From: a virus
Length of the DNA: 31,599 nucleotides
Reading direction: 5' to 3' (one strand)
IMG/VR virus record: IMGVR_UViG_3300005513_000017
Coordinates: 1-31,599 of that record
Below the pieces are notes generated by a model that did no database searches, was not told the DNA's origin, and saw only the letters and a program-made list of their open reading frames with translations. The position numbers were made by a program, and so were the translations under genes. Within the stretch, counting starts at the first letter, position 1. Every line of letters begins with the position of its first letter. Of this stretch, positions 25,545-31,275 are shown piece by piece.

Positions 25545-25969
25545 GCCCAAGCCGCCAACTGGTCGATCACCTCGCCGATCGAGACGCAGATCGACGACGC
25601 CATCAGCGCCATCAGCTCCGGCTCTTCCCCGTCGCGGGTCAGAATGATGGTCTTCTTGCCGGCGCCGGCGCACCAACCGAGTTCGAGGTGGGCCGAGCGT
25701 CCGCATGGCAACACCAGCACGCATACATCGGCCCATTGCATGGCGCCAAAGTCGGAGGCGAAGCCTTCCTGCGCCCGCGGGTGCTGCAGCTTGGCCCGGT
25801 AGTCCGCCGCGCGCCACGACTTCCATTCCGGGTCGATTTCCGACCAGGCGAAGCCAGTCGACTGCGGCGGATTGCGGAAGTCATAAACCTCGTGACCGGC
25901 CTGCCGAAGCATTTCGACGGCGGCCGGCTGGTCCGGATTGCGCCAGCTTGAGGCGAGATAGATCTTCAT
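25541..25969 (-). CDS. Nucleoside 2-deoxyribosyltransferase-like protein
   Basis: The protein is 142 aa from MKIYLASSWRNPDQ; ATGA overlap with the upstream gene fixes this start. The fold pattern is that of the nucleoside deoxyribosyltransferase superfamily: first strand KIYLASSW, then GHEVYDFRNPP, MQWADVCVLVLPCG and RSAHLELGW with Glu96 at the usual nucleophile position, then GKKTIIL. Family knowledge: such enzymes swap or cleave bases on deoxynucleosides; similar phage proteins have been proposed in base modification or nucleotide salvage. The gene lies in a cluster with two DNA methyltransferase genes and a TSCPD protein, so nucleotide or DNA modification is a fair guess. The substrate cannot be read from sequence. 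Confidence 0.7.
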   Translation of the reverse strand: MKIYLASSWRNPDQPAAVEMLRQAGHEVYDFRNPPQSTGFAWSEIDPEWKSWRAADYRAKLQHPRAQEGFASDFGAMQWADVCVLVLPCGRSAHLELGWCAGAGKKTIILTRDGEEPELMALMASSICVSIGEVIDQLAAWA

Positions 25970-28647
25970 GCCTTTTCCCCTTCGTTCTCGATGCCCATGA
26001 GGTCGAAGAGGCTCGGCGTCGCCAGCTCGCGCGCCGCCTCCTCGACGTAGCCGACGCCGTCGGCGAAATAGGTGGGTGACAGCTCGATGCCGATGCCCTG
26101 CCGCTTGAGCTTCAGCGCGCGGTAGGGAACCGTCATGATGCCGCCGAACGGGTCGAGCACCGTCTCGCCGGGCATCGAGTATTGCGCGATCGCCCGGTCG
26201 ACGATGTCGAACTGCAGCGGGCAGAGGTGCATTTCCCGACCGGCGGCCTGCTGCTCGCCGTTGAGGGTGCGCATGCGCGTCACGTCCGACCAGATGTCGG
26301 GATGGCCCGAATGCGGCGGCAGCAGCATGAAGGTCGAGGGTAGCGCGCCGCGCTCTTCCAGTGCCTCGCACAACCCGACATGGTTGGCGAAGCTATAGAC
26401 GTTGGTCAGGTTGAACTGCCGCCACACCTTGTAGATGACGTTGGCATCGAGCCCGACCACCTCTTCGGGCGCCAGCAGCCGGTTGCCGTCCGAGCGCATG
26501 AAGCCGTGCGCATCGAGCTGCCAGCGCGCACGCGAGTAGCCATCCGGGTGCCGCCAGGCGCCGCCCTCCGGCTCAGCCGGGCCAACCTCCCAGCCCTTGG
26601 CGCTCCATTCCTTCTTGTCCTTGTGCACCGGCCGGTCGGCGTAGCCGTCGGAACTGTCGGACGGCGGCCGCCGGAAGATCAGCAGATATTCGGGCAATCC
26701 GGCGCCCATGCGCGAGCCATCCTTGCATTGCTCGCTCCACCCCAGCCGATAGGTCTGGTTGTTCTCGCGCACCACATCGGTGGCGATCGTCTTGCGGGCG
26801 AGGAAGGCGAAGCCATGTCGAGTGAAGGCCGCCGTGCACTGATCGGAGAACGGCGCCACGGTCTGGAAACCGAGGCCGGTCATGCCGCCCGGCACGATCC
26901 GGTCCTTGACATGGATAGCGGCGACCCGCCCGGGCTCGAGCACCCGCAGCAGTTGCGGGATCAGGAAATCCATCTGCGCCCAGAAATGCGCATCATTGTC
27001 GGTGTGGCCGAAGTCGGCGTAATTCGGCGAATACTCATACTGGGTCGAAAACGGGATCGAGGTGACGATCAGCTGCACGCTGGCATCGGCCATGCGCTGC
27101 GTCTCGGCCACGCAATCGTTATTGACCAGCCGATAGCCAGGCGCTGCGACTTCCCGCCGATCGATGCCCATGCCGCGCGTCAGGCTTTTCGCCATGGCCG
27201 CTTCGCTCAGTCCGTACTCGCGGATAATCCCGGCCATGATCGCCATCTGGTCGTCATGCCGGCGCCACTTGGCCTCGAGCGTGTCGCGCACCGGCCTCTC
27301 GGCCTCGGTGTAGATCAGGTCGATCCGCACCGGTCGCGCCTGCAGGAATCTGTAGGTCCGATGGATCGCCTGGATCAGGTCGTTGAACTTGAACCCGATG
27401 CCGAGAAACACTTCGCGGGCGCAGTGCCGTTGGAAATTGCTGCCAGAGCCGAGCATCGACGGCTTGCCGCCGATCTCGACAACGTGCCCATCGGCAAAGC
27501 CGCCGACGATCGCTTCCCGCTCGTCGAGGTCCTGAGAGCCATAGACGGTGGCAAGTCCGGGGATGGCGTCTTCCAGCGCCTCCCGTTCGGCCTCGAGGTC
27601 GTGCCAGATCACTCGGTGTTCGTCAGGTTCGGCCGCGCGCAACTCGAGGAGCTTGGTGATCCGGCTGTCGGTGCTCTCGCGCTTCTCCCGCGCCGCCTCT
27701 CGCAGCGATGCGGCGGCGTTGCGCAGCAACCGCTTCTGGCCGTTCTTCTCCTCGCCAGCCTTGGCGTGGTCCGAAGAGATTTCGTGCCACACCACCTCGA
27801 GCGGCGGCAGGGCGTAGCCCTCGTCGGAGAAGCCGAGGTCCGAGGGCCGCTGCACGAACAGGCCCCAGCTCGCGACCCACAGCCAGAACTCCCGTTCCTT
27901 GTGCGGATGGATCGTGAGCTTATCAGCCTGCTCGGAATTCCGCTTGAAGAACCGGGTCTTGGCCTGGCCGACGTCCATCACCTCAAGGAAAGCCGAATAG
28001 GCCAGCATTTCGATGTATTCGTTCGGCGAGGGTGTCGCGGTGGCGACGAACTTGTAGCGGATGCCGTCGAACAGCCGCATGAACTCGCGGAACGTCTTGG
28101 TGCCGCCGAAGCCGCGGAGACACGAGGCCTCGTCGAGCGATGTGGCAACGAAGGCGCGGGGATCTAGCTTGCCGTCCCGCACCGGCTCGTAATTGGTGAT
28201 GTGAAGCCAGCCGGGCCGCGCTTCTTCGATCGAGCGAATGAACTTCAGATCGATCCGCCGCTCCGGCCGATCGGCCAGCCAGGCGGCCAGCTCGGCCCGC
28301 TGCGCATCGGTGATGCTCGGATCGTCGCCGGTCATCAGCACGTGCGCATCGCGGAAGAATTCGCGGCGCACGCCGAGCGGCGCGCAGATCAATCCCATGG
28401 CGCCGGCCGTGCCGGGCAGTTCCCGCGCCACCACCAGGCGCAGCAGCTCGAGCTGCATGAACGTCTTGCCGAGACCGAAGGCGGCGAAGATGGCGCGCCG
28501 GCCACCGGCTGCCGCCCAGCGGACAATCGCCCGCTGATGCGGCTTCAGCAGCGGATTGATGTCGGCATCCTCGACGGCAAAGCCGCCGATCGGCGCCATC
28601 ACCACTTTGGCCGAGAGGAACTCTTGGTAGGCCACGGGGAGGTTCAA
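25966..28647 (-). CDS. SF2 (SNF2/DEAD-like) helicase fused to a DNA methyltransferase
   Basis: The protein is 893 aa in two parts. Residues about 30-440 are an SF2 helicase/ATPase: Walker A FGLGKTF (58-62 core), DEAS (172-175), motif III VATATPSPNE (201-210) and a motif VI-like QAIHRTYR (427-434). Residues about 505-893 are an amino-methyltransferase of circularly permuted (beta-like) order: motif IV TSIPF (530-534) comes first, and motif I VLDPFGG near 830-836 comes near the C-terminus, followed by KRQGIGIELSPTYF. Family knowledge: helicase-methylase fusions occur in phages and may protect phage DNA while moving along it. SIPF replaces the usual (D/N/S)PP(Y/F) motif, so activity needs testing. 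It overlaps the next gene as ATGA. A small plus-strand gene diverges from its start. Confidence 0.85.
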   Translation of the reverse strand: MNLPVAYQEFLSAKVVMAPIGGFAVEDADINPLLKPHQRAIVRWAAAGGRRAIFAAFGLGKTFMQLELLRLVVARELPGTAGAMGLICAPLGVRREFFRDAHVLMTGDDPSITDAQRAELAAWLADRPERRIDLKFIRSIEEARPGWLHITNYEPVRDGKLDPRAFVATSLDEASCLRGFGGTKTFREFMRLFDGIRYKFVATATPSPNEYIEMLAYSAFLEVMDVGQAKTRFFKRNSEQADKLTIHPHKEREFWLWVASWGLFVQRPSDLGFSDEGYALPPLEVVWHEISSDHAKAGEEKNGQKRLLRNAAASLREAAREKRESTDSRITKLLELRAAEPDEHRVIWHDLEAEREALEDAIPGLATVYGSQDLDEREAIVGGFADGHVVEIGGKPSMLGSGSNFQRHCAREVFLGIGFKFNDLIQAIHRTYRFLQARPVRIDLIYTEAERPVRDTLEAKWRRHDDQMAIMAGIIREYGLSEAAMAKSLTRGMGIDRREVAAPGYRLVNNDCVAETQRMADASVQLIVTSIPFSTQYEYSPNYADFGHTDNDAHFWAQMDFLIPQLLRVLEPGRVAAIHVKDRIVPGGMTGLGFQTVAPFSDQCTAAFTRHGFAFLARKTIATDVVRENNQTYRLGWSEQCKDGSRMGAGLPEYLLIFRRPPSDSSDGYADRPVHKDKKEWSAKGWEVGPAEPEGGAWRHPDGYSRARWQLDAHGFMRSDGNRLLAPEEVVGLDANVIYKVWRQFNLTNVYSFANHVGLCEALEERGALPSTFMLLPPHSGHPDIWSDVTRMRTLNGEQQAAGREMHLCPLQFDIVDRAIAQYSMPGETVLDPFGGIMTVPYRALKLKRQGIGIELSPTYFADGVGYVEEAARELATPSLFDLMGIENEGEKA

Positions 28648-28685
28648 CGCTTGCCTCCGGCCGTCGACGGCGCAATCTTGGTGAA

Positions 28686-28916
28686 ATGACCAAGCAAGAA
28701 GCCACCCGACGCGTAATCCTGTCGCGCCGAACCTATTTCGGCTGGAGAGACGTCCCTCCCATGGGACGCGTTGAGGACACGCTCCGAATGATCAATGAGG
28801 AGGTCGTGGTGTTGGGGAGCATCGCAACGGCCTTTCCCGAAAAGGCAGGGACCATCGGCCTGTTGATCCAAGACTGGAAGACCATGAGCGAGGAGCAGCG
28901 GCGCAAGGCGAACTGA
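28686..28916 (+). CDS. Small hypothetical protein on the opposite strand
   Basis: The protein is 76 aa. It starts MTKQEATRRVILSRRTYFG, then VPPMGRVEDTLRMINEEVVV, and ends LIQDWKTMSEEQRRKAN. Soluble and mixed-charge, it looks like a helical protein. The reading frame has balanced, protein-like composition, while the minus-strand frame over the same bases does not. The ribosome-binding site is weak (TTGGTGAA). It diverges from the helicase-methyltransferase gene (start 38 bases away) and converges on the cytosine methyltransferase gene (stops 6 bases apart). No family is recognised; a regulator of either neighbour is one possibility. Confidence 0.6.
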   Translation: MTKQEATRRVILSRRTYFGWRDVPPMGRVEDTLRMINEEVVVLGSIATAFPEKAGTIGLLIQDWKTMSEEQRRKAN

Positions 28917-28921
28917 GGGTT

Positions 28922-30112
28922 TCATCGTGAAGCGCTCTCCATCATGCGAACAAGCTCAGCTGCGCGGGTGGAACCGCGTGCGGCGAGGCGAGCGACGAGA
29001 GTGCGGAACGCATGCGCCGCTTCCAGACTGACAACCCCGTTCCCGAGCAGGCGAAGCCGGTCGACGCGGGCGGCGTGAGGGCCAGAGAGGTCCACCCGGG
29101 CGGCCACCCCATCAGCCATTCGACGAACAGCGGGTTCAAGGTCCGGCGAATGTGCGAGTGCTCCTCGCCATCCGTCGAGATCGGCCGGTCCGGGAGGGAA
29201 AAGGCCAAGGCCTGCCCTTCCATCGTCAGTCGCGTCTGGCTGGGATCGCCCCTGTCCCGGGTGTAGCCGCCGCTCACCGTCCGAGGCGTCTCCCACTTCA
29301 ACGCCTGCGCCACCAGCGGAGGATTGCCTCGACCGAAGGCCTGGTTCGGGCCGCCCTTGAGCGCGTCCGACGTCATTGGCGTCGCCCAGCGCTCCGCCAC
29401 CCAATCCAGCATGTCGTTTCGGAGTTTGCCGTCCGATCGAACTACTGCGTTGTGATCGCGTGTCGTCGGGGTCGGCCAGTGCTCCGCCATGTCGTAGAGA
29501 CTGACCGTGTGAAACGCCGCAGAACGCTTCTCCGGAGGTTGGCCCACACCGCTCGTGGGATTGGTCGGCGTCGGCCACGCCGAGGATGAAGACGCGCTGG
29601 CGCTCGTGGCTGGCGCCAACTTCCGCCGCGCTGAAAAGTCCGATCTCGACCGCAAAACCAAGTCGGCGAAGGTCTCGCCAAACCCGCTCGGCGCCAGCGA
29701 TTTCGTCAGCCCCAGCCGAGAGCATGCCGGCGACGTTCTCGATGAGCACGAGCCACGGCCGGGCATGGACGATGATGCGTCGGGCTGTTGACCAGAGGTC
29801 CCGGCTGTCGAGGCTGCCGCGCTTGCGGCCGGCCATGCTGTGCGGCTGACACGGGATGCCGCCAATGAGCCCATCCACGAGGCCACGCCAGGGGCGGCCA
29901 TCGAAGGTTCGGGCATCCGACCACACAGCTGCCGGAGCCAGGAGACCCTGTTCCATCGCTGCAACCAGGTGCGCGACGGCGAAGGCTTCCCTCTCCACCA
30001 TAACGACGCTGCGAGCGCCTGGCAGAGCGAGTTCGATGCCGAGGTCGAGCCCTCCGCCACCAGTGCAGATGCTGAGGAGGTCGAGTGTTTGGGCAGGTAG
30101 AGCCACATTCAT
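28922..30112 (-). CDS. C5-cytosine DNA methyltransferase (C-terminal half also open in +1 frame)
   Basis: The protein is 396 aa. Catalytic motifs are all present in the N-terminal half: motif I SICTGGGGLDLG (14-25), motif IV GGIPCQPHS with catalytic Cys88, motif VI ENVAG (125-129) and motif VIII ERQRVFILG (170-178). The C-terminus has a motif X-like RLLGNGVV (354-361). Between them lie repeats beginning ADA or ADP/GDA at intervals of about 30-33 codons, where the target-recognition region should be. Third-position G/C is high up to about 29580 but drops after that, while the +1 frame becomes rich in G/C-ending codons (see separate entry). Family knowledge: phage C5 methyltransferases mask phage DNA from restriction. 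The start overlaps the ParB-like stop as ATGA. Confidence 0.85.
   Translation of the reverse strand: MNVALPAQTLDLLSICTGGGGLDLGIELALPGARSVVMVEREAFAVAHLVAAMEQGLLAPAAVWSDARTFDGRPWRGLVDGLIGGIPCQPHSMAGRKRGSLDSRDLWSTARRIIVHARPWLVLIENVAGMLSAGADEIAGAERVWRDLRRLGFAVEIGLFSAAEVGASHERQRVFILGVADADQSHERCGPTSGEAFCGVSHGQSLRHGGALADPDDTRSQRSSSIGRQTPKRHAGLGGGALGDANDVGRAQGRPEPGLRSRQSSAGGAGVEVGDASDGERRLHPGQGRSQPDATDDGRAGLGLFPPGPADLDGWRGALAHSPDLEPAVRRMADGVAARVDLSGPHAARVDRLRLLGNGVVSLEAAHAFRTLVARLAARGSTRAAELVRMMESASR
28942..29590 (-). other. Alternative (+1) coding frame over the methyltransferase C-terminal half
   Basis: In the +1 frame the DNA is open to a stop at 28942 and reads like another known type of phage cytosine-methyltransferase C-terminus. 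It has WPTPT, WPTPT, WATPM and WETPR repeats, then LNPLFVEWLMGWPPGWT, and an ending PPAQLSLFA whose QLSLF resembles a beta-clamp-binding motif. At 29102-29176, 22 of 25 codons in this frame end in G or C, against 11 of 25 in the main frame. The catalytic half is not in this frame, so the reading would require a +1 shift near 29560-29590 or separate initiation. It could be frameshifting, an indel, or dual coding. Confidence 0.5.
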
Positions 30113-31275
30113 ACCGCCTCTGCCCTGCGCGGCCTCGGCGCCGCGAGGCCCTTGCCGAGCCCGGTGAGCTTCAGCCGGGCGGTCCAGCCCTGCACGGTGC
30201 CGATGGTGGTGCCGAGGTCGTCGGCCATCTGGCGGCGGGTGATGTTGCCGGCTTCGACCCCTGCCCTGAGGATCGGCTCGGCCGTGGCCATGGTGTGCTT
30301 GCCCTTGAGATCGGAGGCAGCGGCCAGCTGCTCCTCATAGGGCGTCAGCGCCGGCGGTGGCGGCGCCGGTTCGGCCTTCGGACCTTCCGGCGCATCACGC
30401 AGCTTGCCGAGCACGAGCAGCATCGGCCGCGTCAGCGAAAACACCTCGCCGGCCTCGACGATGCCGAGCTTGCGCGCCTCGTCGAGCACCATATCCGCCG
30501 ACATCGAAGCACCGCGCCCTCCATGTCTCTCGGCGACCCGGTGCGCTTCGCGCACCACGATCTCAGCAAAGTTGGCGAGGTCGGCCCGGCTCATCGGCGA
30601 GGGTAGTTCCGGCGCCGTCAGCTTCTGCCGCGCTGCCGTCCGAACGGACTTCTTGTCCGGATATTCGGCGATGATCCGCTGCTCGATGTGCGTCAGCTCG
30701 CGAGCAGCCTTTTCGGCGACATGCAGGGCAAGCTTGCCCTGCTCCACCGCCTCGACCAGCTCGGCTGCGCCGTGGTCGAGCACCACGTGTGCCGAGCTGA
30801 CCAGCCGCTCGGATACCCCTGCCCGCTCCGCAACTTCCCGCAAATTTGCGGCAGCCGTTTCGGGCTTGAGGTCGGTGCGGGCTCCCTGCCGGCGCTCGTG
30901 ATAGCGCGCGGCGGCCAGCGCCCGCTGCGGCTTGTCATCATGGCGCCGGTGGAAGTTGTGGTCCCACACGAACTCGAGCGGATCGAGCTGGTCCTTGGGC
31001 CACCCTATGCCGCCGAAGCCGATGAAGTGCGGGTCAAAGCGCCAGTCGACGTCGGCCGCGATCACCCCGGCCTTGACCGCCGCGAGGTACCGGTTGCGAC
31101 CGTCGAGGATTTGTCCTTCGTAGATCACGATCTGCTCGCGCAGGCCGCTGGCATCGATCGAGGCGGCCAGTTCGGCCAGCTCGTCGTCATCCATCAAACG
31201 GAAGATGCCGGCGATCGGGTGCGGGCGAATGCCGCTAACCGGCCAGCCCTGCGGCAATGGTTCGAGGTCGCTCAC
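30109..31275 (-). CDS. ParB/Srx-like N-terminal domain protein with C-terminal HTH
   Basis: The protein is 388 aa. The N-terminal 70 residues match the ParB/sulfiredoxin-like domain: HPIAGIFRLMDDDELAELA, ASIDASGLREQIVIYEG and LDGRNRYLAA (DGRNR at 58-62). The middle is helical (VAERAGVSERLVSSAHVVLD looks like a helix-turn-helix). The C-terminal end again has an HTH-like segment, ITRRQMADDLGTTIGTVQGW. Family knowledge: phage ParB-like proteins may be CTPases, nucleases or regulators rather than partition proteins; no parA gene lies nearby. It sits upstream of the cytosine methyltransferase gene with ATGA overlap and overlaps the next small gene the same way, so it is part of the early operon. 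Confidence 0.85.
   Translation of the reverse strand: MSDLEPLPQGWPVSGIRPHPIAGIFRLMDDDELAELAASIDASGLREQIVIYEGQILDGRNRYLAAVKAGVIAADVDWRFDPHFIGFGGIGWPKDQLDPLEFVWDHNFHRRHDDKPQRALAAARYHERRQGARTDLKPETAAANLREVAERAGVSERLVSSAHVVLDHGAAELVEAVEQGKLALHVAEKAARELTHIEQRIIAEYPDKKSVRTAARQKLTAPELPSPMSRADLANFAEIVVREAHRVAERHGGRGASMSADMVLDEARKLGIVEAGEVFSLTRPMLLVLGKLRDAPEGPKAEPAPPPPALTPYEEQLAAASDLKGKHTMATAEPILRAGVEAGNITRRQMADDLGTTIGTVQGWTARLKLTGLGKGLAAPRPRRAEAV

Follow-up and report, generated by a model that had tools for sequence, protein, structure and literature searches.

Nested reading frames of a phage locus very probably encode the two subunits of one C5 cytosine methyltransferase

The small polypeptide of the methyltransferase M.EcoHK31I (YGGCCR) is itself read from another frame within the gene for the large one. 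This enzyme is naturally split (PMC3439449). According to PMC3404938, citing Lee, Kam and Shaw 1995, its large polypeptide carries motifs I–VIII and X, its small polypeptide carries motif IX, and both are needed; in the same paper, the predicted target-recognition domain (TRD) is assigned to the large polypeptide. In M.AquI, made of α and β polypeptides, motifs I–VIII lie on one chain, and part of the variable region plus motif IX lie on the other (PMC3404938). Inactive halves of C5 methyltransferases also reassemble when co-expressed, and the best break is between motif VIII and the recognition domain (PMC3404938). The ShiLan element, finally, places an HNH endonuclease out of frame within a phage methylase gene (PMC11855218). 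For the nested pair reported here, no description was found in the open-licence literature; a published one may exist.

The window analyzed is the whole 31,599-nt stretch of IMG/VR record IMGVR_UViG_3300005513_000017. On its minus strand, positions 28922–30112 encode a C5 cytosine methyltransferase catalytic subunit of 396 aa (F0, frame 0), in which motifs I–VIII and X were placed from a PF00145 match, an AlphaFold model and alignment to M.HhaI. Overlapping it in the +1 frame, at 28942–30108 (–), is a gene of 388 aa (F1), proposed to encode a target-recognition/motif IX subunit on the basis of its openness, phrogs matches, conserved frame, stop depletion and purifying selection. F1 is open from the ATG at 30108 to the stop at 28942–28944, almost the whole of the F0 gene (388 codons). 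An earlier note on this DNA had found that the C-terminal half of the methyltransferase gene reads sensibly in two frames. The double reading is real, but the span given for it was too short. Neither the whole-gene overlap nor the interpretation of the two frames as complementary halves of one enzyme was part of that note. We conclude that the locus is very probably a pair of overlapping genes for a two-subunit C5 methyltransferase, with motifs I–VIII and X on F0 and the W-x-T-P modules and motif IX on F1.

M.EcoHK31I is the nearest precedent, its division of motifs matching that of F0 (I–VIII, X) and F1 (IX). Unlike in M.EcoHK31I, the overlap in the window spans almost the entire gene, and F0 is predicted to lack a folded recognition domain. 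On the best reading, F0 and F1 would work together as the M.EcoHK31I polypeptides do; this likeness is drawn from the published description rather than from sequence, and we claim no membership in the same family. M.AquI carries motif X on the small subunit, whereas in the window motif X is on F0 and not on F1. The division of work between F0 and F1 falls at the best break for reassembling enzyme halves, between motif VIII and the recognition domain. F1 resembles the ShiLan endonuclease in being a second protein, in another frame, within a phage methylase gene. Yet ShiLan is an inserted mobile endonuclease, whereas F1 overlies the conserved catalytic region, occurs in almost every relative and matches neither HNH nor any other Pfam family. 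When 72 F1 proteins were compared with Pfam and NCBIfam, no HNH family was among the hits, and a homing or HNH element was rejected as the identity of F1, which contains no such domain.

F0 is a C5 cytosine DNA methyltransferase catalytic subunit. Residues 12–181 match PF00145 (E 4.8e-24), and C88, Q89, E125, R171, R173, G357 and N358 are invariant (PCQ, ENV, RxR and GN motifs). The catalytic core with motifs I–VIII occupies 29573–30085 (–), with PCQ at 29846–29854, and shows an F0-dominated substitution pattern; in the AlphaFold model, core residues 10–180 have pLDDT values of 87–97. Motif X, RVDRLRLLGNGVVSLEAAHAFRTL, lies at 28988–29068 (–), where G357 and N358 are invariant in F0 alignments and pLDDT is 94–98, and the helices of this motif are confidently modeled (residues 355–395). 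The model aligns with M.HhaI over 223 residues (Z 22, rmsd 3.1). Residues 187–347 (29072–29554, –) occupy the place where a TRD is expected. Since pLDDT is about 40 here, this stretch is predicted to be disordered, and the AlphaFold model of the F0 chain contains no folded TRD. Substitutions in the stretch are F1-dominated, and in F1 this DNA is read as the W-x-T-P array and motif IX.

All features named in the earlier note are present, on the minus strand. The four W-x-T-P modules it had reported in the +1 frame begin at codons 178, 211, 241 and 272 (spacing 33, 30 and 31), corresponding to 29577–29566, 29478–29467, 29388–29377 and 29295–29284 (29284–29577 overall, –), and have LLPTP counterparts in mycobacteriophage Ramsey gp69 and Gordonia phage Leonard gp5. 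The motif IX-like segment LNPLFVEWLMGWPPGWT (29089–29139, –) is near-invariant in F1 alignments, has pLDDT values of 86–90 and finds an in-frame counterpart, AFPEWMMGWPAGW, in Ramsey gp69; read in F0, its DNA gives EPAVRRMADGVAARVD. Also where that note had placed them are the QLSLF ending of F1, which reads QLSLFA before the stop codon, and, in the main frame, RLLGNGVV. A C-terminal helix of F1, SVWKRRMRSALSSL (28990–29043, –; residues 356–373 of the F1 model), overlaps F0 motif X, and its R367 is nearly invariant. Third-position GC in the mid region is indeed higher in the +1 frame (0.80 versus 0.57 in the main frame); the corresponding N-region values are 0.75 and 0.73.

Searches of viral contigs, bacterial genomes and phage records with both F0 and F1 queries supplied the relatives, among which 324 distinct loci had a recognizable N-domain. 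The C-half of F1 was in the +1 frame relative to F0 in 307 of them. When retrieval relied on the F0 profile alone, blind to F1, the same relation held for 77 of 79 loci. By motif pattern, motif IX in the +1 frame was accompanied by motif X in frame 0 in 285 of the 324. Four odd loci (L205, L209, L231 and L099) have a mid-region indel that moves both frames together. A naturally fused form of the nested pair within the close family was considered and dropped, as the same-frame loci (L205, L209 and L033) proved to be indels. In a small clade (L116, L121, L123, L255, L257 and L260), F0 ends right after motif VIII (FILAYR, then a stop), and F1 is intact at ∼430–510 codons; a pattern search in any frame found no motif X in this clade. 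The earlier note had offered an indel, a programmed frameshift or an overlapping gene as explanations. A single frame relation in 307 of 324 distinct loci refutes the first, and, with both frames open and under selection, strongly supports the last.

One of the shifted copies, L205, contains a CA repeat at ∼2700–2800, encoding THTHTHTH in the mid region. It is a possible slippage site, assembly error or phase-variable repeat.

Taken by itself, the open F1 of the window is only modestly unusual: in synonymous shuffles with F0 held fixed, F1 stayed open with a probability of 0.13 over the N region and 0.009 over the entire overlap. It is comparison with relatives that puts F1 openness far beyond chance, the window alone being insufficient. 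Expected stop counts were obtained by shuffling synonymous codons within each gene. Across the N region (the F0 methyltransferase core) of 307 loci, 50 F1 stops were observed versus 559 expected, and F1 was fully open in 260 loci versus 62 expected. A first set of 105 loci had given 1 stop versus 194 expected in this region. Among 508 neighboring ORFs, +1 stops were not depleted (2360 versus 2334 expected), which shows the shuffling method to be unbiased for the +1 frame. The +2 frame was mildly depleted of stops, both at the locus (1184 versus 1338) and in neighbor genes (2757 versus 3301). In the mid region the constraint falls on F1, and there 33 stops were counted in F0 versus 350 expected; 31 of these 33 came from four loci. 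Stop depletion is also seen at a locus with GC3 down to 0.41 and in an Acinetobacter phage. An F1 left open by chance in GC-rich DNA, or an indel introduced by sequencing or assembly, would fit the shuffles of the window taken singly. Set against the roughly tenfold depletion over hundreds of loci, its absence from neighbor genes, its persistence at low GC3 and in the Acinetobacter phage, and the one frame relation throughout, such an explanation is refuted.

Patterns of substitution indicate which frame selection acts on. In 43 independent pairs, differences per codon position in the N region, counted in the F0 phase, were.123/.068/.251, an F0-like pattern. The mid region was F1-like (.343/.330/.472 in the F1 phase), and the tail around motif X was again F0-like (.177/.104/.234 in the F0 phase). 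In the N region, changes that are silent in F0 were conservative in F1 (BLOSUM difference +0.195, t 10, 86 of 105 pairs), whereas the same changes read in the +2 frame as a control were not (+0.023, t 0.9). With transversions at fourfold sites only, the +1 signal was +0.106 (t 5.6) and the +2 control also rose, to +0.082 (t 2.6). These comparisons point to purifying selection on F1 amino acids in both the mid and the N region, with a weaker signal for transversions only. Because this restricted +1 signal is weaker and the +2 control is raised, amino-acid selection on the N-half of F1 is less firm than its openness.

The two genes begin together. A shared start region, ATGAATGTGGCT (30099–30134, –), contains the F0 ATG at 30112 and the F1 ATG at 30108; the TGA that ends the upstream ORF adjoins both. 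Among relatives, NTGAATGTGGCT is the commonest start context and is kept in most. The F1 start is ATG, four bases downstream of an F0 NTG start that varies among ATG, GTG and TTG, and the F1 N-terminus reads M(x)WLY or similar. Mean Shine–Dalgarno pairing was –5.7 kcal/mol before F1 starts versus –2.9 at control ATGs in the same genes. The proximity of both starts to the TGA would be expected for coupled translation. In Paraburkholderia L273, the codons for the F1 N-terminus, MTWYFSRAMLEAF, lie upstream of the F0 start, and this N-terminus still keeps the family pattern. In gene 58 of Escherichia phage N15, an F1 frame of ∼240 codons starts at an ATG that follows GGGAGG, stays open to an LMGLP end and is unannotated.

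The surrounding genes of the window are closely packed. The upstream ORF (30109–31275), the pair and the next ORF (28644–28925) overlap by ∼3–4 bases at each junction (28644–31275, –), as in translationally coupled operons. Shortly downstream of the pair, an 893-aa ORF (25966–28647, –) matches PF01555, an N6/N4 DNA methylase domain, at residues 524–861 (E 3e-12), whereas its long N-terminal part matches nothing in Pfam; two methyltransferases thus lie close together. Antisense to this gene runs a 595-aa ORF (26380–28167, +), probably a by-product of GC-rich coding sequence.

What F1 contributes has to be read from its relatives, as its AlphaFold model (pLDDT 57, pTM 0.24) is confident only around LNPLFVEWLMGWP and in some helices, too poor to demonstrate a recognition-domain fold. 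F1 matches phrog_27243 (E 5e-25) and phrog_1008 (E 1e-15). It is not recognized by Pfam or NCBIfam, and its profile found nothing credible among solved structures. Actinophages carry enzymes with an F1-type C-half, including LPTP modules and EWMMGWP, like that of the window. But these enzymes are encoded by separate, partly overlapping genes or in a single frame, and motif X travels with the F1-type half. In mycobacteriophage Catdawg, gp6 has motifs I–VIII, and gp5, in the +1 frame with an overlap of ∼200 bases, has LLPTP, NPAFAEWMMGWPDGW and motif X; Arthrobacter phage ArV1 067a/067b and Kampy gp78/gp77 are split in the same way. Ramsey gp69 and Leonard gp5 contain motifs I–VIII, LLPTP modules and motif X in a single frame, with a motif IX-type segment directly before motif X (EWMMGWP and EWMMMLP, respectively). 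An HMM of the F1 C-half from the nested family matched Ramsey (E 3e-17), Kampy (3e-15), ArV1 (6e-15), Leonard (1.5e-11) and Catdawg (5e-11), with the search size set to 1000. In L273, F0 stops after motif VIII, and W-x-T-P, IX and X are all in F1. Catdawg, ArV1 and L273 are the AquI-like form of the nested-pair family. The split and single-chain homologues, the HMM matches and the L273 arrangement together argue that the C-half of F1 is the recognition/motif IX half of a C5 methyltransferase.

F1 might instead be a real overlapping protein that is not a methyltransferase subunit, such as a separate phage protein sharing the DNA. Its absence from curated families, an N-half without a known relative and a fold that is not confidently predicted would all suit such a protein. 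This reading is very improbable, however, given that the C-half shares homology with the in-frame C-half of single-chain methyltransferases and with the second gene in split enzymes, and that F0 lacks the very domain F1 would supply.

The single chains of Ramsey and Leonard bear on another alternative, the frameshift option of the earlier note. Here a programmed +1 ribosomal frameshift after motif VIII would join the F0 N-domain and the F1 C-half in one chain. Ramsey gp69 and Leonard gp5 have exactly that order, and one clade has an F0 that terminates right behind motif VIII. Yet no conserved slippery sequence was found at the junction in 304 loci. Frameshifting would not require F1 to be open, under selection and equipped with its own start ∼170 codons upstream, all of which are observed, and it would leave F0 motif X unused despite strong conservation. 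We therefore regard it as very improbable. Upstream of the fusion point, both single-chain genes also retain a stretch in the F1 frame that bears the F1 signature (SEPYSETLPTSGMTRSG..LLPTP in Ramsey), which tentatively suggests that they arose from an overlapping ancestor by an indel.

A two-subunit enzyme would be made as follows. One mRNA would yield two proteins from adjacent starts with a common ribosome-binding region. F0, in which a long unstructured linker connects the SAM-binding core (motifs I–VIII) to motif X, would bind SAM and catalyze methylation. F1, translated from its own ATG, would contact the target through its C-half (W-x-T-P modules and the LNP..EWLMGWP motif) and supply motif IX, and the two chains would associate into the active enzyme. 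That F1 is translated, binds F0 and sets the methylated sequence is what we infer from sequence comparison.

The nested pair is widespread. It also occurs in Salmonella S9-5, Acinetobacter ABMM1, Stenotrophomonas S72, Microcystis Mel-JY01, Pseudomonas Shamal, Lacticaseibacillus R23.9, Bacteroides BF1-TP2 (whose F1 has no recognizable LMGWP), Vibrio ZQ26, Paenibacillus Diva, N15 gp58 and epsilon15. Annotation mostly gives one frame. Both are listed in K1G (ORF30 within ORF31, Mte8-like), fKuEco01 (KE1_033), PhiXhv-28 and Paenibacillus Diva, where DIVA_50 is described as an internal gene. The record of Pseudomonas phage Shamal has F1 as its CDS, labeled a hypothetical protein, and omits the overlapping methyltransferase frame. 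A broader proposal, which we put forward tentatively and hold to be somewhat less probable than not, is that phage C5 methyltransferases include a large, ancient class in which two subunits are obligatory and the one for specificity is encoded nearly in full by the +1 frame of the catalytic gene. The W-x-T-P modules, whose number varies, might then form a new, array-like TRD that evolves by module gain and loss with both frames kept open.

If the two-subunit reading is correct, hundreds of phage and prophage methyltransferases are annotated with half the enzyme. F0 by itself would presumably be unable to choose a target; specificity would come from the frame that is mostly left out of annotation. 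The genes would be among the longest same-strand overlapping pairs with comparative evidence in both frames, and would span phages of Proteobacteria, Cyanobacteria, Firmicutes and Bacteroidetes, with those of Actinobacteria as partial overlaps. The split and fused relatives open the route between one-chain, split and nested forms to direct study.
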